Source of the DNA: an uncultured Bacteroidales bacterium
GTDB taxonomy: Bacteria > Bacteroidota > Bacteroidia > Bacteroidales > Bacteroidaceae
Direction: 5' to 3'
Assembly (NCBI GenBank): GCA_945836755.1
Contig: CAMAMB010000005.1
Span: forward strand, 1 to 64,000
Length of the DNA: 64,000 bases
The position numbers and the translations under genes are program-made. The stretch's first letter is position 1; each line of letters opens with the position of its first letter. The notes under the pieces were generated by a model. The model saw only the letters and a program-made list of their open reading frames with translations, was not told the origin of the DNA and made no database searches. Below are positions 1-42,890 of this stretch, piece by piece.

Positions 1-70
1 GTAGTTTTTCCTAGATGTACATGTAGTTTTTCCTAGATGTACATGTAGTTCGAACCGGATGTACATGCAG
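1..70. repeat. 22-bp repeat array A (TGTACA-centred), cut by window edge
   Basis: TGTACA palindromes lie at 16-21, 38-43 and 60-65, exactly 22 bp apart, separated by T-rich linkers. The tail of another copy (GTAG) is present at position 1, so the array continues to the left of the window. The third copy has a diverged linker. The core orientation (CTAGATGTACATGTAG) matches array B at 36.2 kb. No ORF here is credible; ORF 11..229 on the minus strand is a translation of the repeat. Confidence 0.9.
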
Positions 71-29106: not shown

Positions 29107-31032
29107 TCATTGGGCAAGGCCGGCGTGATACATTCCGTCGCGGCAGCAAATTTTTCCTTCGTCGAGGAGGGCTCGCAGAACGTGTCCCACGCGGGCCTCG
29201 TCCCATTGGCTGATGTCTATGTCCTGTGGAGCGAGCGGTTTCCCCTTCTCTAACATGGCCAGGATGTAGGTGCTGATTTCAGCGTCGGTGTCGGCCGGCT
29301 TTACTGGCGGTCGTGTGTCGGCGGGCTTGTTGAGGCAGATGTCACAGCCGCCGCAGTTGTCGGCGTCGTCGTCGAAGTATCTGAGCAGGTAGCGGCTTCG
29401 GCAGAGCTCTGTCTCTTTGAGGTAGCCGATCATGGCATTGACGCGTTGCTCAAATTGCTTCTTGCGCAGATCGTATACCTCTGTGGGCAGGTCGATATAC
29501 TCGGTCTTCAGACGCCGGCACAGGTAAGTGATGCGGGGCACCCTCTTGGCCGGCACGTAGTTGAGTAGGCGGTGGCGCGTGAGGCTTTTCAGTGTCTCGT
29601 ACACCCGGTGTGGGTCGAGGCCGGATGCCTCGCAGATGATAGTCTCGTTAATGGGCATGTAATCAGCAAAGACGCCGGTGCAACAGCGCAGCACCGCCTG
29701 GAGCACCCGCTCCTCGTCGCTGTTCAGATAGTCTATGTGATAGAGGTCGTCACGCCGGACAATGAACATGAGGCGCGACTGTGCCTCGTCCTCATCGCTG
29801 TAACAGATGTAGCCGGCGCGTTCCAGCAGGTGGATGGCACTCTGTACGAGGGTGGGGAAGTGGTGGAAGGTTTTGCTGAACCCCTCCAGGTTGAACTCAA
29901 AGGTGCGGTCTTCGCCTTCACCCTCGGCCACCTGCAGGTAGCATGCCACGTCCTCATACACCTGCCTGACGTAGTCGCGCGGGGGATAGTTCTCGCCCAC
30001 CCTGCGTCTGAGCAGGGCCACGTCGTGGTCGTTGCAGAGCAGCACGGCATAGCTCAGCCCGCCGTCTCGGCCTGCGCGCCCGGCTTCCTGGAAGTAGGCC
30101 TCGAGGCTGTCGGGCACGTTGTAGTGAATGACGAGCCGCACGTCGGGCTTGTCAATGCCCATGCCGAAGGCGTTGGTTGCCACCATGACCCTTGTGAGAT
30201 CGTTTTGCCAAAGCTCCTGCCGGGCGTCCTTCTCGGCCGAAGTGATACGGGCGTGATAGTGCATGGCGGTGATGCCCTTGGCCTGTAGCTCCTTCACCAG
30301 TTCGGCAGTGGCGTTGCGGTTGCGGGTATAGACGATGGCGCTCCCCCCGACGCTCCTGAGAATGTGAATGATTTCAGCGATTTTGTCGTCGGTTCTACGC
30401 ACCACGTAACGCAGGTTCTTGCGCTCGAAGCTCATGCGGAAGAGTTTCCCCTCCTTGAAAGCCAGCTTCTGCTGTATGTCCTTGCAGACGGCCGTGGTGG
30501 CCGTGGCGGTGAGGGCCAGTACAGGCACTCCGGGGAGCAGGGCGCGTATCTCGGCGATGCGCAGATAGTGAGGCCGGAAGTCATAGCCCCATTGTGAGAT
30601 GCAGTGGGCTTCGTCCACCACGAGCATGCTCACTTTGATGCTCCGCAGGCGGCTCTGAAAGAGAGGGGTGACCAGACGCTCGGGCGACACGTAGAGAAGC
30701 TTGTATGCTCCGTAGTGGGCGTTGTCTAAGTGGCGAATGATGTCCTTGTGCGTCATGCCGGAGTAGATGGCCGCTGCCATGATGCCTCGCTTGCGCAGGT
30801 TGGCCACCTGGTCCTTCATGAGGGCGATGAGGGGGGTTATCACAAGACAGGTGCCTTCCATCAGAATGGCCGGCACCTGGAACGTGATACTCTTGCCACC
30901 GCCCGTAGGCATGAGGCCGAGGGTGTCGTGACCTTCGGCTATGCTGCGGATGATGTCTGCCTGTATGCCGCGAAAGTGAGGGTATCCCCACACGCGGCGC
31001 AGTGTATCCTGATATGCCTTTGCGTCGTACAT
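29107..31032 (-). CDS. recQ: ATP-dependent DNA helicase RecQ
   Basis: This 641-aa superfamily 2 helicase unwinds recombination and repair intermediates 3' to 5'. Motifs are LMPTGGGKSITFQVP (Walker A), VVDEAHCISQWGYDFRP (DEAH plus aromatic loop), NAFGMGIDKPDVR and QEAGRAGRDG. The zinc-binding RQC region ends in CGGCDIC. The C-terminal segment after residue ~560 is short and I cannot confirm an HRDC domain. It lies between recJ and the ABC gene on one strand, so recJ-recQ form a natural resection pair. Confidence 0.95.
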   Translation of the reverse strand: MYDAKAYQDTLRRVWGYPHFRGIQADIIRSIAEGHDTLGLMPTGGGKSITFQVPAILMEGTCLVITPLIALMKDQVANLRKRGIMAAAIYSGMTHKDIIRHLDNAHYGAYKLLYVSPERLVTPLFQSRLRSIKVSMLVVDEAHCISQWGYDFRPHYLRIAEIRALLPGVPVLALTATATTAVCKDIQQKLAFKEGKLFRMSFERKNLRYVVRRTDDKIAEIIHILRSVGGSAIVYTRNRNATAELVKELQAKGITAMHYHARITSAEKDARQELWQNDLTRVMVATNAFGMGIDKPDVRLVIHYNVPDSLEAYFQEAGRAGRDGGLSYAVLLCNDHDVALLRRRVGENYPPRDYVRQVYEDVACYLQVAEGEGEDRTFEFNLEGFSKTFHHFPTLVQSAIHLLERAGYICYSDEDEAQSRLMFIVRRDDLYHIDYLNSDEERVLQAVLRCCTGVFADYMPINETIICEASGLDPHRVYETLKSLTRHRLLNYVPAKRVPRITYLCRRLKTEYIDLPTEVYDLRKKQFEQRVNAMIGYLKETELCRSRYLLRYFDDDADNCGGCDICLNKPADTRPPVKPADTDAEISTYILAMLEKGKPLAPQDIDISQWDEARVGHVLRALLDEGKICCRDGMYHAGLAQ

Positions 31033-31082
31033 GGTTGAGTGTCAAGGATGTGGGCGGGCTGCGAGCCGCGGACGGTCCGGCG

Positions 31083-32888
31083 TCAAGCCTCTGCGGGGAT
31101 GGTGGCCGGTGATTGGTCGTGGGGGGCTGCGGCGGGCTTGTCGTCGGGTAGTGCGGCCGGGTCTTGCTGCCGCTCGCGAGGTCTGATGTCAATGATCTGC
31201 AGCTGCACGTCGCCGCGCTTGTGCGTGTTCTCCTCGATGGTATAGCAGATGTCGAACGACTGTTTCGTCTTGATGTAGCGTGCCTGTGAGCTCTGGCCGA
31301 AGGCGATGCCATTCATCACGTGGTTTATCTTATCGTCCACAAGTTCCAGCTTGATGTGCTCCTGGCCACGTCCCACCACCTTGCTTGTGCCGTAGTCGTA
31401 GACCTTCTTGGTGCAAAACACGGGCTTCTCGTTCATCGGTCCGAAGGGGGCAAAGCGCCTGAGCTGCTGGTAGAAACGGAAGTTGACGTCTTTAAATTCG
31501 AGCAGGGCGTCTATGTTGAGGCTGGCCTTCGTCTGCTCGTCGAGGATGTGCTCGGCCACGTATGCCTCAAAGCGTGTGGCAAACTCTTCCACGTGCTCCA
31601 CGCGCAGGGTAAGCCCCGCGGCATAGGTGTGGCCGCCAAAGTTCTCCAGCAGGTCGGCGCAGCTTTGAATGGCCTTGTACACGTCGAAGCCTGAGACGGA
31701 GCGGGCCGACCCCGTGGCCAGTCCCTCACTACGTGTAAGCACCACCGCCGGACGATAGTACTGCTCGGTAAGTCGCGAGGCCACGATGCCGATCACACCT
31801 TTGTGCCAGTCTTCGTTGTAGATGACCACGCTGCGGCGGCTGTTCATGTCGGGCAGGGCAGCAGCTTGCTCCATGGCCTGCTCCGTAATCTGCTTGTCTA
31901 AGTCCTTGCGTGCCTCGTTGTAGAGGTTGATATGGCCGGCCATGTCGAGCGCCTTGGCATAATCCTTCTCTACGAGCAGCTCGACGGCCTCTTTGCCGTT
32001 CTGCATACGCCCCGAGGCATTGATGCGTGGGCCAATCTTAAACACGATGTCGTTCATCGTCAGCTCCTTGTCCGTCATGCCGCATATGTCGGCTATGGCC
32101 TTCAGCCCGATGCTCGGGTTGGCGTTCAGACAGCGCAGGCCGTGGTAGGCCAGCACGCGGTTCTCCCCCATGACAGGCACGATGTCTGAGGCTATGCTGA
32201 CGGCACACAGGTCGAGCAGCTGCAGGAGCTTGTTCTGCTCGATGCCGTTGCTTATGGCGAAGGCTTGCATAAACTTAAAGCCCACGCCGCAACCCGAGAG
32301 CTCGGTGTAGGGATAAGTGTTGTCGGAGCGTTTGGGGTTAAGGATGGCCACAGCGTCGGGCAGGATCTCGTCGGGCACGTGATGGTCGCAGATGATGAAG
32401 TCGATGCCTTTCTCCTTGGCGTATGCTATTTCGCGTGTCGCCTTGATGCCGCAGTCGAGCACGATGATAAGGCGCACGTCAGTCTCGGCAGCAAAGTCTA
32501 TGCCCTTGAAGCTGATGCCGTAGCCCTCCTCGTAGCGGTCGGGGATATAGTAGTCGATGTTGGAGTAGTACTGACGCAGGAAGCGATAGACGAGGGCGAC
32601 GGCGGTACATCCGTCCACGTCGTAGTCGCCATAGACCAGGATACGCTCTTTCCGTCCCATGGCCTCGTTGAGCCGGTCGACGGCCTTGTCCATGGAGTTC
32701 ATGAGGAAGGGGTCGTGCAGCTCTTGCAGGTGTGGACGGAAGAAGCGCGCCGCCTCCTCCTTGGAGCGGATGCCCCGGTCGTGGAGAAGCTTTGCCAAGG
32801 CCGGGTGTACACGTGTGGCTGCGGCCAGCTCGTGTATCTCCGCCTCGGCCTGCTCGTCGGGGGCGTCATAGTTCCATTTGTAAATCAT
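31083..32888 (-). CDS. recJ: single-stranded-DNA-specific exonuclease RecJ
   Basis: This 601-aa 5'-3' exonuclease of the DHH family has motifs VYGDYDVDGCTAVALVYRF, LDCGIKA and FIICDHHVPDE. The DHHA1 region includes GGHTYAAGLTLRV, and an OB-like domain follows. The last ~30 residues are low-complexity Pro/Ala and probably disordered. It acts in mismatch, base-excision and recombination repair. It is first in the recJ-recQ run (50-bp gap). A near-consensus -7 element TAACTTTA lies at 32977-32984 on the minus strand. Confidence 0.95.
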   Translation of the reverse strand: MIYKWNYDAPDEQAEAEIHELAAATRVHPALAKLLHDRGIRSKEEAARFFRPHLQELHDPFLMNSMDKAVDRLNEAMGRKERILVYGDYDVDGCTAVALVYRFLRQYYSNIDYYIPDRYEEGYGISFKGIDFAAETDVRLIIVLDCGIKATREIAYAKEKGIDFIICDHHVPDEILPDAVAILNPKRSDNTYPYTELSGCGVGFKFMQAFAISNGIEQNKLLQLLDLCAVSIASDIVPVMGENRVLAYHGLRCLNANPSIGLKAIADICGMTDKELTMNDIVFKIGPRINASGRMQNGKEAVELLVEKDYAKALDMAGHINLYNEARKDLDKQITEQAMEQAAALPDMNSRRSVVIYNEDWHKGVIGIVASRLTEQYYRPAVVLTRSEGLATGSARSVSGFDVYKAIQSCADLLENFGGHTYAAGLTLRVEHVEEFATRFEAYVAEHILDEQTKASLNIDALLEFKDVNFRFYQQLRRFAPFGPMNEKPVFCTKKVYDYGTSKVVGRGQEHIKLELVDDKINHVMNGIAFGQSSQARYIKTKQSFDICYTIEENTHKRGDVQLQIIDIRPRERQQDPAALPDDKPAAAPHDQSPATIPAEA

Positions 32889-33180: not shown

Positions 33181-34407
33181 CTAATAATTGGTGATGATTA
33201 GATGGGTGGCGTTTTTGTTGTTCCTATTCATAAAGCTCACTAAATACTCCTTGTCGAATGTCTGTATACTTATGCCGGGCTTCCGGTATAGGCTGTAAAT
33301 GAAGTCTGTATACTTGATGATGAGCATCCACTTGGCCTTGCACTCGTGCAGCAGATAGTTTGACAGCCTAACCTGGTCGTCTCGCGTAAAAGCATTTTGG
33401 GCATAAGTGTTGAACTCGCTGTCATAAGGGGGGTCAAGGAAAATGAAATCTTTGGCAGTCGGGCTCGTCTGTCGTAGGAACTCTTCGAAGTCTGCATGGT
33501 AGATGTGTGCACGTGAGAAGTGTTCCTGCAGCGGGGAGGATAGGTAGTATGCCAGTTTCTTGTCCATCAGCTTGGCATTATAAGCAATCCCGCCGTAGGG
33601 TACATTGAACTCGCCTTTGGCGCTGTAGCGGAACATGCCACTGTAGGAGTAGTTTCGTAGGAAGAAGAATAGGGCGCAGTGGACGGGGGCGTCGGGGGAG
33701 GTGTTCTCCTTATTATATATATGGCGGTAGGTCATGTAGAGGCCACTTTTGAGCGCGGCTTCCATGTTGTCGTATAGGTCCTTCTCAATGAGGGGATGCT
33801 TTTCCAGTTCCAGCTGCCTCATTCGCTTCATCTTTCGCAGTAGGTTGCCGGTTATCTGTTTGCGGAATACGTCTATGTAGATGTAGAAGTTGCCTCTCAG
33901 TATGTGGCTTATCTGTTTCTCATGGTCTGCTACGAATGTGAGGATGTCGTTTTGCAGGACCTGTTCATTGCCTTGTAGCCTGTGCGAAATATAGATGCGG
34001 TAGAGCTGATGGTCTGACAGCAGGAGCTTGCCTGTTTGCTGCCAGGCAAGGTCCATTTCTTTGACCAGGTCCATGAAGTCGGGATTGCTTGCGGCGATTT
34101 GTCGGTAGAGTGCAATCAACTCGGCCGAAAGGTCATTGATGTAGTACTCGCCGGCCTGTACAGCCATGAATACTGAGCCTCCTCCCACGAATGGCTCATA
34201 GTATCTGTGAAACTTGGGGATGTTGGGGAGAATATATTTCAGCTCTTTCTCCTTCCCTCCGGGCCATTTGATGATGGGGCGGAGTATGGTGGAAGCGAGG
34301 CCGTCTGTCGATGCCTGAGCTGAGGGGCATCTCCCATTCTCTCCGCCTTGTAGGGGAGGGGTTATGATGGTCTGGCTATGGGCCGGGCAGGTGTTACCTT
34401 GTGCCAT
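33181..34407 (-). CDS. D12-class DNA adenine (N6) methyltransferase
   Basis: This is a 408-aa protein from ATG 34407, 7 bp after the stop of the preceding methyltransferase. The D12/Dam-type core starts near residue 42: PIIKWPGGKEKEL, then the AdoMet motif YEPFVGGGSVFMA, IKYTDF and catalytic IFLDPPYDSEF. It methylates adenine and protects the host from the operon's endonuclease. The first ~40 residues (TPPLQGGENGRCPSAQA) look like translated repeat DNA and may not be native. Gene order is nuclease, methyltransferase, methyltransferase. Confidence 0.88.
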   Translation of the reverse strand: MAQGNTCPAHSQTIITPPLQGGENGRCPSAQASTDGLASTILRPIIKWPGGKEKELKYILPNIPKFHRYYEPFVGGGSVFMAVQAGEYYINDLSAELIALYRQIAASNPDFMDLVKEMDLAWQQTGKLLLSDHQLYRIYISHRLQGNEQVLQNDILTFVADHEKQISHILRGNFYIYIDVFRKQITGNLLRKMKRMRQLELEKHPLIEKDLYDNMEAALKSGLYMTYRHIYNKENTSPDAPVHCALFFFLRNYSYSGMFRYSAKGEFNVPYGGIAYNAKLMDKKLAYYLSSPLQEHFSRAHIYHADFEEFLRQTSPTAKDFIFLDPPYDSEFNTYAQNAFTRDDQVRLSNYLLHECKAKWMLIIKYTDFIYSLYRKPGISIQTFDKEYLVSFMNRNNKNATHLIITNY

Positions 34408-34414
34408 GGGGGCT

Positions 34415-35161
34415 TTACTTTTGGGTTTCCTGTATGCGCTGCAGGGTGTGGTTAATTCTATTGTATGCTGCGTCGTAATATGTGCGGTCAATCTCCACTC
34501 CTATATATCGTCGCCCGAGTTCTAAGGCAGCCACACCTACTGAGCCAACTCCCATGAAGGGGTCAAATATGATGTCATCTTCGTTGGAGGCAATTCTTAT
34601 CATCTTCTTCAGGATGGAGGTAGGCTTCTGGGTGGGATGTTTGGGTGATTTGAGGCGCTCAGGGGGCATGCAGATGGGGCTTTCTAAGAAGTTGTGCATT
34701 TCTGATTGCGATATGAAGTTCCAGGTGTGGCGCTTGTTCCAGCAGGTGAATATCATCTCGCAGCTGTTAAGAAACCCCGCCTTATATATCTTAGGTGCAG
34801 GGTTGGTCTTATGCCATACGATGAAGTTGGAGGTGTCAAACCTCTTGTCGAGACAGTTGTACCATCTCCCGATATGATTATAGGAGGTGAAGATAAATAA
34901 GTTACCTGAGGGTTTGAGTACACGTATGAAGTCGTCGGCCCATTCTTCCGGGCAGAACTCTACTTTGTCCCATTCGGCCACATCGTTGTTCATGTCTGCG
35001 CGTCCGGGAAGGGGAATGTTACCTGTAGAATGAAGTCCCAGATTATACGGCGGGTCGGTCAGGATGAAGTCGATAGAGTGGTCGGGGAGCTGCTTGATGA
35101 TAGTTCTGCTGTCGCCGTGCAGCACACTCTTGCGCCAGTGGGGGTCATGCGTCATCATCAT
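34415..35161 (-). CDS. beta-class DNA amino-methyltransferase (N6A or N4C)
   Basis: This 248-aa enzyme carries the catalytic motif DFILTDPPYNLGL before the AdoMet-binding motif DPFMGVGSVGVAALELGRRYIGVEID, which is the beta-class order of motifs. A KSPKHPTQKP segment between them is typical of this group. It belongs to a three-gene restriction-modification operon with two methyltransferases, resembling DpnII-type systems in layout. It overlaps the endonuclease stop codon by 17 bp. Whether it marks A or C cannot be settled by eye. Confidence 0.9.
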   Translation of the reverse strand: MMMTHDPHWRKSVLHGDSRTIIKQLPDHSIDFILTDPPYNLGLHSTGNIPLPGRADMNNDVAEWDKVEFCPEEWADDFIRVLKPSGNLFIFTSYNHIGRWYNCLDKRFDTSNFIVWHKTNPAPKIYKAGFLNSCEMIFTCWNKRHTWNFISQSEMHNFLESPICMPPERLKSPKHPTQKPTSILKKMIRIASNEDDIIFDPFMGVGSVGVAALELGRRYIGVEIDRTYYDAAYNRINHTLQRIQETQK

Positions 35162-35969
35162 CGGTAAGGTATGCTGCCTGTATATCGTTCAGGGCTTCTG
35201 TGATGTAATGTGCTTGCTTCTTATATTCGTCCATGACAATGTGAAAACCTTCATCCCACTTGCAGACTAAATTCCAGAAGTCGCGGCTGATGCAAAGCTC
35301 CTCGTTGGCAAAGAACTGACGTACACGGCCTTGTGTCCAAGGTCGGCCTTCTCCATAGCGGTTGTACGCTGTGGCAAATAGTATCCTGACTTTATTCTCA
35401 CCAAGCCGGTTGGTTAATATGCAATACTGCTCGAGCAGGGCTTCCTTCTCTGAGCGAGCCTTTTTGTTGTCCAGGTCACCACCAATTTTAAGCTCTATCA
35501 GGTAGTGATTCCCGCTTTCTTTGTCTATGAGGTAGTAGTCGCTCTCGTGCCTTTTGGTGTGGGCTGTACCCTGAAGCCTCGAAATGCCCTCATAGTCGCT
35601 CACTTGGGGGATACGCCTATCTTTGGGCCGTTTGTACTGCTCAAGCAGCTCGGCTATATAGTCTGTCTGCTCTTTGTAGAGTATACCCTCCACGTGTTGG
35701 CTGACCTCATAGTTCATCTTGGCTATACAGATGGCCATCCTCTCCAGCATGTTGCCCAAGGAGCTGTCTAATGAACAGGCCAAGGCTGAGTAGTACTGTA
35801 TTTCAGGGCCTAATGTCGCGATGAAGATGTTGTGTATCTTCATGTTGATCACTCCATTCTCATTATCTACTTCAGCGAGATGCCGGGTGGCAAAGCCTTC
35901 TGCGTACGACCTGACAGCGCTTTCGACAATGCAGCGAATGGCCTTTTCTTTGTCAATGCTATTTTTCAT
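35145..35969 (-). CDS. putative Type II restriction endonuclease
   Basis: This is a 274-aa protein from ATG 35969 (MKNSIDKEKAIRCIVESAV). A PD-(D/E)xK-like core is visible: HESDYYLIDKESGNHYLIELKIGGDLDNKKA, where the acidic residue plus E-L-K would bind metal. No known DNA-binding domain is recognised. Its place as first gene of an operon with two DNA methyltransferases makes restriction endonuclease the best call. An ApaLI- or TdeIII-like family is possible from memory but unproven, and it does not look like DpnII/MboI. The recognition site is unknown. The gene is A+T-richer than its neighbours, suggesting transfer. Confidence 0.72.
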   Translation of the reverse strand: MKNSIDKEKAIRCIVESAVRSYAEGFATRHLAEVDNENGVINMKIHNIFIATLGPEIQYYSALACSLDSSLGNMLERMAICIAKMNYEVSQHVEGILYKEQTDYIAELLEQYKRPKDRRIPQVSDYEGISRLQGTAHTKRHESDYYLIDKESGNHYLIELKIGGDLDNKKARSEKEALLEQYCILTNRLGENKVRILFATAYNRYGEGRPWTQGRVRQFFANEELCISRDFWNLVCKWDEGFHIVMDEYKKQAHYITEALNDIQAAYLTDDDDA

Positions 35970-36061
35970 AGACGTTTGATGGTTTGCGTGCAATCTCCAC
36001 AAGGTGGGCGGATGCGTGTGGTGAAGCGTACGAATGGGCGTCACCTATCATATTGATTGAG

Positions 36062-36091
36062 CAAATATAGTTAAAAATGTGTACATGGCAA
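36062..36091 (-). promoter_or_regulatory. promoter of restriction-modification operon (TTG-N19-TATATTTG)
   Basis: On the minus strand TTG (36089-36091) is followed after 19 bp by TATATTTG (36062-36069), a full Bacteroidetes -33/-7 promoter. Transcription would start near 36055, about 85 nt before the nuclease ATG. Confidence 0.65.
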
Positions 36092-36224
36092 TCTTGTCTG
36101 GCTAATAGTGGTGTGTGTAGATGTCCGGGGGCATGTTGTGTGGCTTGGCTGGATGGCGGCAGGCGGTGGGTGGCTCTGAGGGGGTGCTGCTTGTGCAATA
36201 TGATTTCGGGTCGTGGCTTTGGTT

Positions 36225-36332
36225 TTTCCTAGATGTACATGTAGTTTTTTCTGGATGTACATGTAGTTTTTCCTGGATGTACATGTAGTTTTTTCTAGAT
36301 GTACATGTAGTTTTTTCTAGATGTACATGTAG
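36225..36332. repeat. 22-bp repeat array B (five TGTACA cores)
   Basis: TGTACA cores at 36234, 36256, 36278, 36300 and 36322 are each exactly 22 bp apart, in CTAGATGTACATGTAG-type units joined by T-rich linkers. Two units have GG in place of AG. The array sits between the terminator of the TPR gene and the promoter of the restriction-modification operon. The large minus-strand ORF (36102-36926) that spans it is spurious. Confidence 0.92.
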
Positions 36333-36481: not shown

Positions 36482-37432
36482 TCAGAAACCGTAGGGGTTC
36501 ATGGAGCGGTAGCGGTCGTTCATGGCGTTTTCCATGTTGGTGTATTCGCCGTCGGGCACTACTTCGTTGGCGGGGGCGAGTTCGAGTGCTTTTTTGAGGT
36601 CGTCGGCTGCTCCTGCGTCGTCGTGTAGGTGGTGTTTGATGGCGCCGCGCTGTTTGTAGGCTTCGGCAAAGTCGGGTTGGCATTCTATGGTGTCGTCGTA
36701 GAGTGCGAGGGCTTTGTCGTAGCGTGTGAGGGTGACGTAGAGCCGGCCTAAGGCGAGGATGGCTGTGCGTGCGAAGGGGTTGAGGGCGATGAGGTGTTCG
36801 TAGTCGGCGACTGCCTCTTCGTGGCGTCCGATGGCGGTGAGTATTTGTGCGTGGAGTGTGAGGTGGTCTTCGTCGTCGGGTTGGTTGTGTAGGAGTACTT
36901 CGGCGTCGGCGAGGGCTTCGTTCCACTGTTGCATCTCTGCCAGTATGGTGGCTCTCAGTCGGTGTGCCTGAAGCATGTTTGGCTCGTGGGTGAGGCTCTG
37001 TGTGAGGTGGGCGATGGCGGCCAGGTGGTTGCCTGTGCCGTGGTCGGCCTCGGCTGCGAGGTAGAGGGCGGCGGGATGTGTGGGCTCTTGTGCGAGGAAT
37101 TCGGATGCGGCGGTGCGTTCTTCTTCGTAGTGTCTGAGCCGGCCGAGTGTCTCTATGAGGAGTAGGTGGACACGTTTATTGGCTGCGTCGAGGCGGTGGA
37201 GTTCTTGGAGGAGGGGGAGGGCTTCTGTGTGGTTGCCCATGCGCAGGTGTGCTTCTGCCAGCAGTGCGGTGGTGGCGGGTTCGCGCTTTAGCTCGAGGGC
37301 TGCCATGAAGCATTTTACGGCGTATGGCATTTCGCCTATCTGCATGGCGCGTATGCCGTCGTCGCGCAGGGTGTTGTATTGCTGGTCGGGGGTGGGTTTT
37401 GATGTGCCGAAGATGGCGGAGAGTATGCCCAT
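36482..37432 (-). CDS. tetratricopeptide repeat protein
   Basis: This 316-aa protein has a short N-terminal segment (MGILSAIFGTSKPTPDQQYN) followed by about seven TPR units: GEMPYAVKCFMAALELKREP, GNHTEALPLLQELHRLD, GRHEEAVADYEHLIALNP and YDKALALYDDTIECQPDFA. No signal peptide or enzyme domain is present, so it is probably a cytoplasmic scaffold. The partner is unknown. It lies downstream of fabI on the same strand, separated by a hairpin terminator, and ends at the hairpin of array B. Confidence 0.88.
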   Translation of the reverse strand: MGILSAIFGTSKPTPDQQYNTLRDDGIRAMQIGEMPYAVKCFMAALELKREPATTALLAEAHLRMGNHTEALPLLQELHRLDAANKRVHLLLIETLGRLRHYEEERTAASEFLAQEPTHPAALYLAAEADHGTGNHLAAIAHLTQSLTHEPNMLQAHRLRATILAEMQQWNEALADAEVLLHNQPDDEDHLTLHAQILTAIGRHEEAVADYEHLIALNPFARTAILALGRLYVTLTRYDKALALYDDTIECQPDFAEAYKQRGAIKHHLHDDAGAADDLKKALELAPANEVVPDGEYTNMENAMNDRYRSMNPYGF

Positions 37433-37480
37433 GGTGGTTGCGTTGTGGGTAGTGGGTGTGGCCGGGTGAGGGATAAAAGC

Positions 37481-37521
37481 AGGCCGGAAGTCAGGGGGGC
37501 GGCCTCCTTGACTTCCGACCT
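37481..37521 (-). terminator. terminator of fabI
   Basis: The arms AGGcCGGAAGTCA and TGACTTCCGaCCT form a long imperfect stem. On the minus strand it is followed by GCTTTTAT, giving a U-rich tail. It lies 39 bp past the fabI stop and before the TPR gene start. Confidence 0.75.
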
Positions 37522-37559
37522 CTGTGTGGGTGTATGTGTGTCGACTTGGGCAGGGTGTA

Positions 37560-38417
37560 TTATCCGTAGATTATCTTGCCTTGTTCGTCTTCGTAGGGTG
37601 TGAGGTCTTTGGAGTACTGGTTCATGGCTCTCAGGCTCATGCCCATGCTTGAGAAGCCGCCGTCGTGGAAGAGGTTTTGCATGGTGACCTTTCGTGTGAA
37701 GTCGGAGAACATCATGACGCAATAGTTGGCGCATTCTTCTGCGTCGGCGTTGCCGAGCGGTGACATCTTGTCGGCGAAGTCCATCATGTTGTCAATGTCT
37801 TTGATGCCCTTTCCGGCAGTGGTGGCGGTGGGACTCTGTGAGATGGTGTTGACGCGCACGTGTTTTTCGCGGCCGTAGATGTATCCGAAGCTGCGTGCGA
37901 TGCTTTCGAGCATGCTCTTGGCGTCGGCCATGTCGTTGTAGCCGAAGAAGGTACGCTGTGAGGCGACGTATGTGAGGGCTACGACGGAGCCGTACTCGGC
38001 GATGGCGTCCATCTTCTTGGCTACCTGTAGCATTTTGTGGAAGGAGATGGCCGAGATATCGAGGGTCTTTTGCAGATAGCCGTAGTCGAGGTCGTCGTAG
38101 GTGCGGTGCTTGCGGACGTTGGGGCTCATGCCGATGGAGTGGAGCACGAAGTCGATTTTTCCTCCGAGTACTTTCTGGCTTTCTTCAAATACTTTCTGTA
38201 GGTCTTCCACGCTGGTGGCGTCGGCAGGAATGACGGTGGCGCCAATTTTTTCGGCGAGCTGGTCGAGTGTGCCCATACGCAGGGCCATGGCTGTGTTACT
38301 GAGGGTGAGCTGTGCGCCCTCTTCAGCAGCTTTGAGAGCCACTTTCCAGGCGATGCTGTCTTCGTTGAGCGCGCCGAAGATGATGCCGCGCTTTCCTTGC
38401 AATAAGTTGTGAGTCAT
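37560..38417 (-). CDS. fabI: enoyl-[acyl-carrier-protein] reductase FabI
   Basis: This 285-aa NAD(P)H-dependent enzyme completes each round of fatty acid elongation. The N-terminus GKRGIIFGALNEDSIAWKVA is the FabI nucleotide-binding signature. DFVLHSIGM and the catalytic YNDMADAKSM (Tyr-X6-Lys) follow, then VNTISQSPTATTAGKGI. Length is slightly above that of E. coli FabI, as usual in Bacteroidetes. It has its own strong promoter, and the upstream region carries a 42-bp minisatellite. This is the target of triclosan-class inhibitors in other bacteria. Confidence 0.96.
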   Translation of the reverse strand: MTHNLLQGKRGIIFGALNEDSIAWKVALKAAEEGAQLTLSNTAMALRMGTLDQLAEKIGATVIPADATSVEDLQKVFEESQKVLGGKIDFVLHSIGMSPNVRKHRTYDDLDYGYLQKTLDISAISFHKMLQVAKKMDAIAEYGSVVALTYVASQRTFFGYNDMADAKSMLESIARSFGYIYGREKHVRVNTISQSPTATTAGKGIKDIDNMMDFADKMSPLGNADAEECANYCVMMFSDFTRKVTMQNLFHDGGFSSMGMSLRAMNQYSKDLTPYEDEQGKIIYG

Positions 38418-42713: not shown

Positions 42714-42761
42714 AAAAAACTCCAGGCATGCCGGTTTCTCCCGGGTTGCTTGGAGTTTTTT
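42714..42761. terminator. sppA terminator abutting array C
   Basis: AAAAAACTCCA (42714-42724) pairs perfectly with TGGAGTTTTTT (42751-42761) around GC-rich inner pairs. The A/T ends make it bidirectional between sppA and the convergent Nudix gene. The T-tract continues straight into the first 22-bp repeat. Confidence 0.9.
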
Positions 42762-42890
42762 CTACATGTACATCTAAGAATAACTACATATACATCTAGT
42801 TTTTCCTACATGTACATCTAGTTTTTTCTACATGTACATCTAAGAATAACTACATGTACATCTAAGATTTTCTACATGTACATGTAGATT
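42761..42890. repeat. 22-bp repeat array C (six cores)
   Basis: Cores TGTACA at 42767, 42811, 42833, 42855 and 42877 and the variant TATACA at 42789 keep an exact 22-bp period. Units read CTACATGTACATCTAG, the reverse complement of arrays A and B, while the T-rich linkers stay on the same strand. Two linkers are replaced by AAGAATAA. Confidence 0.92.

Follow-up and report, generated by a model that had tools for sequence, protein, structure and literature searches.

The window, by which we mean the whole 64,000-nucleotide stretch of DNA analysed, holds a genuine and intact Type II restriction-modification operon. It consists of three intact minus-strand genes that run from 35969 to 33181 and encode a TdeIII-family nuclease, then a beta-class and then a D12 adenine methyltransferase. 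Both the nuclease family and the paired alpha/beta logic are already known, and the layout, whose two methyltransferases recur in dozens of genomes from Bacteroidales and Treponema, is a variant of a known system. The explanation we prefer, in which our belief and our doubt are about evenly matched, is a mobile operon whose homodimeric nuclease would act on an adenine-containing 5-bp interrupted palindrome, with GANTC or a closely similar sequence the likeliest. At that site the beta and D12 enzymes would be redundant; they would have been fused in the Bacteroidales branch and separated again here.

The gene for the type II restriction endonuclease occupies 35145..35969 on the minus strand. 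Its open frame extends from a GTG at 36044 to 35145 (299 aa); because the homology of relatives begins mostly at residues 24-33, the start is probably the ATG at 35969, which gives 274 aa. There is a 17 bp overlap with the gene for the beta-class adenine-N6 methyltransferase, a CcrM/DpnA/YhdJ-like enzyme of 248 aa (34415..35161, minus strand). In the window sequence, a 7-bp gap (34408..34414) separates the beta stop from the ATG of the D12 (alpha-class, Dam-like) adenine-N6 methyltransferase (33181..34407, minus strand), which has 408 aa from this ATG and an open frame that reaches back to 34491. The original prediction of three genes, overlapping or 7 bp apart, is borne out, with all the minus-strand reading frames present. 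It had also given the operon its own promoter, and a pattern scan found a candidate of the Bacteroidales type before the operon (36062..36093, minus strand), with the box TATATTTG at 36069-36062 and ATTG 19 bp upstream of it. Since TTG-N18-21-TAnnTTTG pairs are so few (just 5 when both strands of the window are counted, the operon candidate included), an own promoter is plausible by pattern, although unproven. A sigma-70 scan stayed near shuffle level. A 22-bp unit built on CTAGATGTACATGTAGTTTTTT is tandemly repeated in at least three places of the window (1-67, 36222-36332 and 42754-42890), one of them just upstream of the operon. A search of Rfam returned nothing.

A profile search of the nuclease placed it clearly, with 116 bits (2.3e-33) to Pfam PF09520 (RE_TdeIII) against a curated cut-off of 27.2 bits. 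The same profile is matched by 30 of the 30 aligned nuclease relatives, and profile-profile comparison with canonical TdeIII proteins gave a probability of 98.5%. The ELK-type core noticed earlier is confirmed as D169...E184-L-K186 (ExK), invariant across 63 relatives. Likewise, the nuclease was correctly said not to resemble DpnII: it does not match the nuclease family of DpnII, and RE_TdeIII is the sole restriction family over its Pfam cut-off. What did not hold is the view that the nuclease was unplaced or belonged to an under-described family. Judged by its PF09520 matches and its invariant core, it is a placed, intact PD-(D/E)xK-type enzyme of the catalogued TdeIII family, with which it shares its length and a co-linear catalytic core. 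Weaker matches among the 30 aligned relatives, to EcoO109I (14/30), HinfI (18/30, best 3.4e-5) and HpyAIV (6/30), suggest distant kinship with these three enzymes. The similarity to HinfI and HpyAIV is weak and co-linear through the catalytic core, and the HinfI-family scores of the relatives, 13-20 bits, lie far below the curated cut-off (NF045831, 175 bits; 160-175 bits for the HinfI and HpyAIV nuclease families). A PDB sequence search with the nuclease gave no meaningful match, and Foldseek of its model (pLDDT 84) against the PDB found nothing significant.

Both methyltransferases retain the DPPY and SAM motifs, and we regard them as m6A-type because the motif is DPPY. The beta enzyme matches Pfam N6_N4_Mtase (PF01555, 1.7e-40) and the D12 enzyme matches MethyltransfD12 (PF02086, 4.2e-35) and TIGR00571 dam (3.4e-45), so that the predicted pair of beta and D12 (alpha) adenine methyltransferases, after the gene logic of DpnII, proved right. 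PDB matches of the beta enzyme are CcrM and, nearest, an H. pylori chain named 'DpnA', which we take to be M1.HpyAVI; the C-terminal DNA-binding domain of CcrM is absent. Among the best PDB matches of the D12 enzyme are DpnM and E. coli Dam. In the alignment of D12 relatives, K9, R124 and P134, which read DNA in E. coli Dam, are kept and R137 is replaced.

The pairing invites a division of labour as in DpnII, in which D12 would protect double-stranded DNA and beta would methylate single-stranded DNA, guarding incoming transforming DNA, much as the original suggestion of single-strand protection during uptake would have it. We find this very doubtful. In its favour, CcrM is active on double- and single-stranded DNA, and the PDB chain closest to the beta enzyme bears the name DpnA, although that H. 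pylori enzyme has its name from annotation only. Like the window, the DpnII and MboI systems (GATC) have a single nuclease together with two adenine methyltransferases, one alpha (D12) and one beta, the classes being paired as in DpnM and DpnA, and DpnA methylates single-stranded DNA (PMC3573125). Their nuclease is of a different family, however, and the window's order is nuclease-beta-D12, with methyltransferases that are often fused in its group. Fusion ties both activities to an equal dose, whereas dpnA, not dpnM, is induced in competence (PMC3573125). Moreover, in loci with the beta enzyme alone, described below, no methylase would then be there to protect the double-stranded chromosome.

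The target of TdeIII is GGNCC. Next to the canonical TdeIII nucleases that we sampled, a single SPPY (m4C-type) methyltransferase of ~490 aa, Pfam N6_N4_Mtase, occurs in 24 of 27 loci, which is consistent with cytosine-N4 methylation of GGNCC. This companion, a habit of the family, is missing in the window's branch, which has two DPPY enzymes instead. The original reading is therefore contradicted only by half: the nuclease family is known, but its sampled canonical members carry a single SPPY enzyme and not the two-methyltransferase layout. Given two m6A-type companions, the target of the window's branch should contain adenine, and the branch appears to have moved to such a target. Cleavage of GGNCC by the window nuclease is unlikely because GGNCC has no fixed adenine for m6A-type enzymes. 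The new specificity proposed originally gains indirect support, relative to GGNCC, from a protection that would need adenine in the target.

Our best guess for this target, GANTC or a close variant, draws on CcrM-core residues in a sister clade and on the HinfI-like features of the nuclease. In that clade, where D12 is accompanied by a different beta enzyme, the latter has a CcrM core (E 3e-113), and the CcrM residues R44, Y93, H94, R129 and H134 are kept in 9/9 beta sequences; in the CcrM structure, R44, Y93, H94 and R129 read G1 and T4 of GANTC. HinfI cuts G|ANTC (PMC4081073). The likeness of the window's system to HinfI and HpyAIV, both of them G|ANTC systems, lies in the nuclease core and in a CcrM-type beta enzyme, strongest in the sister clade, and the window differs in its extra D12, in a beta enzyme without the CcrM C-terminal domain and in its low family scores. 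Its beta enzyme does not have the CcrM reading residues but L44, N94, G129 and C134, an equally conserved set, so the GANTC guess reaches the window solely through conservation of the nuclease (about 60% identity). In avoidance statistics covering every 4-bp palindrome and every N-centred one of 5 bp, GANTC did not separate genomes with the nuclease from those without it. GATC occurs at 0.12-0.57 of expectation in Bacteroidales, and because GATC and CTAG are depleted group-wide regardless of the nuclease, motif avoidance is uninformative on the target. Given these avoidance data and a beta enzyme that does not carry the CcrM reading residues, GANTC can only count as an inferred specificity for the window's system. 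In the literature searched, no paper dealt with TdeIII in connection with restriction endonucleases, and none with GANTC methylomes of Prevotella.

A scan of 84,980 genomes yielded 67 nuclease loci with several layouts. A beta-D12 fusion of ~670 aa adjoins the nuclease in 25 of them (Bacteroidales). Separate genes, beta then D12, stand beside the nuclease in the window, in Treponema and in others, and D12 followed by the different beta enzyme in Patescibacteria, Saprospiraceae and others. By manual sorting, the nuclease is accompanied by beta alone in 12 loci, some at contig ends, and by D12 alone on plasmid pA3H9 and in Prevotella sp. HAN020 (L054/G479). One locus (L038, 5109-6807) has the nuclease gene twice in tandem, followed by one fused methyltransferase. 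In a Bacteroides locus (L064, 5152-8883) the nuclease comes without either methyltransferase, and a 363-aa ORF and an apparent C5-cytosine methyltransferase lie downstream. A contig from a viral collection carries the nuclease with the beta-D12 fusion, and a search of a phage collection gave no nuclease match. In the literature searched (outside REBASE), we found no description of the fused layout with a TdeIII-lineage nuclease.

Where the window has its 7-bp gap, most close relatives have an open frame that codes for a linker joining beta and D12, and the order in the fusion, beta then D12, is that of the window genes. The nuclease tree, with moderate support values and several branches unsettled, nests the window among fused relatives, with Prevotella aurantiaca as sister. 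Because of this nesting we read the separate genes as a secondary split: the two methyltransferase genes of the window probably arose by fission of a fused gene. The conserved linker tail of the fused relatives is missing at the window junction. An assembly frameshift was considered, as the frames overlap by ~77 nt and one indel could join them; since there is no such linker and no run of one base exceeds 4, it is disfavoured and fission is preferred, though unproven. A dispersed repeat that split the fused gene was rejected, as a search of the genome gave no further copy.

We infer that the nuclease, a member of the TdeIII/HinfI superfamily, is most likely a homodimer that would cut an unmethylated, interrupted 5-bp palindrome containing adenine. 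Beta and D12 would both place m6A on this same target, where either alone could protect and the two together would do so redundantly; the Bacteroidales branch would have joined them in one polypeptide, which the window genome probably separated again. The single-enzyme loci are what point to a palindromic site and to redundancy, if those systems work. In the finished Desulfurella chromosome and in eight draft genomes, the nuclease occurs with beta, and a genome-wide search finds no relative of D12. In Prevotella sp. HAN020 it occurs with D12 alone, and the best beta match elsewhere reaches 28 bits. Such loci speak more for a palindrome open to protection by either enzyme than for a strand-by-strand division. 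They may be decaying or changed in target, and for pA3H9 the search covered the plasmid alone.

The division of strands that these loci speak against would have beta methylate one strand and D12 the other, with a nuclease that cuts an asymmetric unmethylated site. To our knowledge, all named relatives of the window nuclease cut interrupted palindromes, which also argues against it. In its favour, most loci retain both classes, and do so with either of two different beta families; fusion would also come naturally to two methyltransferases that are always required jointly. Moreover, M12.MhoVII of Mycoplasma hominis is a beta (YhdJ-type)-D12 fusion in the same order as most close relatives of the window, with halves that methylate GATG and CATC on opposite strands of an asymmetric target (PMC12898733). 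Such a fusion is found in 25 relatives, and the genes are separate in the window itself. The MhoVII nuclease, at 524 aa and AlwI-related (PMC12898733), is set apart by its size and by that paper's description from the TdeIII-type enzyme of 274 aa in the window. As the fusion order matches, though the nuclease differs, we keep a division of strands as a serious minority reading.

Beta alone might instead be the cognate protector, with D12 a captured accessory methyltransferase for another motif, e.g. GATC. Beta-only loci are common, and in all two-enzyme comparisons between same-type relatives D12 diverges faster (60% identity) than the nuclease and beta (about 80%). Neither redundancy nor a division of strands explains this divergence well. 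However, the nuclease also occurs with D12 only, both in L054/G479, which has no close beta relative, and on plasmid L002 (pA3H9), and D12 is retained with two different beta families; an accessory role thus seems rather unlikely. Returning to redundant protection, we suggest a fuller history, tentatively and with somewhat more doubt than belief. A TdeIII branch, originally with cytosine-methylated GGNCC as its target, would have gained CcrM-like and Dam-like methyltransferases and so moved to a GANTC-like palindrome methylated at adenine; the two methyltransferases were then fused into a bifunctional enzyme; the two classes would act redundantly on the same palindrome, unlike the strand-splitting MhoVII.

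Within the genus, the nuclease is present in just 2 of 58 genomes, and horizontal spread fits this distribution. The operon sits amid housekeeping genes, with recJ and recQ downstream and a TPR protein and fabI upstream (window 29107-32888 and 36482-38417). In an empty-site comparison, the FabI-TPR linkage is retained in congeners, and no recJ turned up in the 1.5 kb visible beyond it. Prevotella nigrescens (NZ_CP082843.1; L003 4992-5279) has a short gene, annotated hypothetical, with 64% identity to nuclease residues 32-81; lying between pyrI and sppA, it is apparently a decayed remnant of the nuclease.

The operon makes it possible to follow a restriction system as it changes its target chemistry, and probably its target sequence too, while the nuclease lineage stays. 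The natural series of loci with beta only, D12 only, both separate and both fused lends itself to testing why there are two methyltransferases per nuclease. For work on gut or oral Bacteroidales, the operon names a likely restriction barrier.
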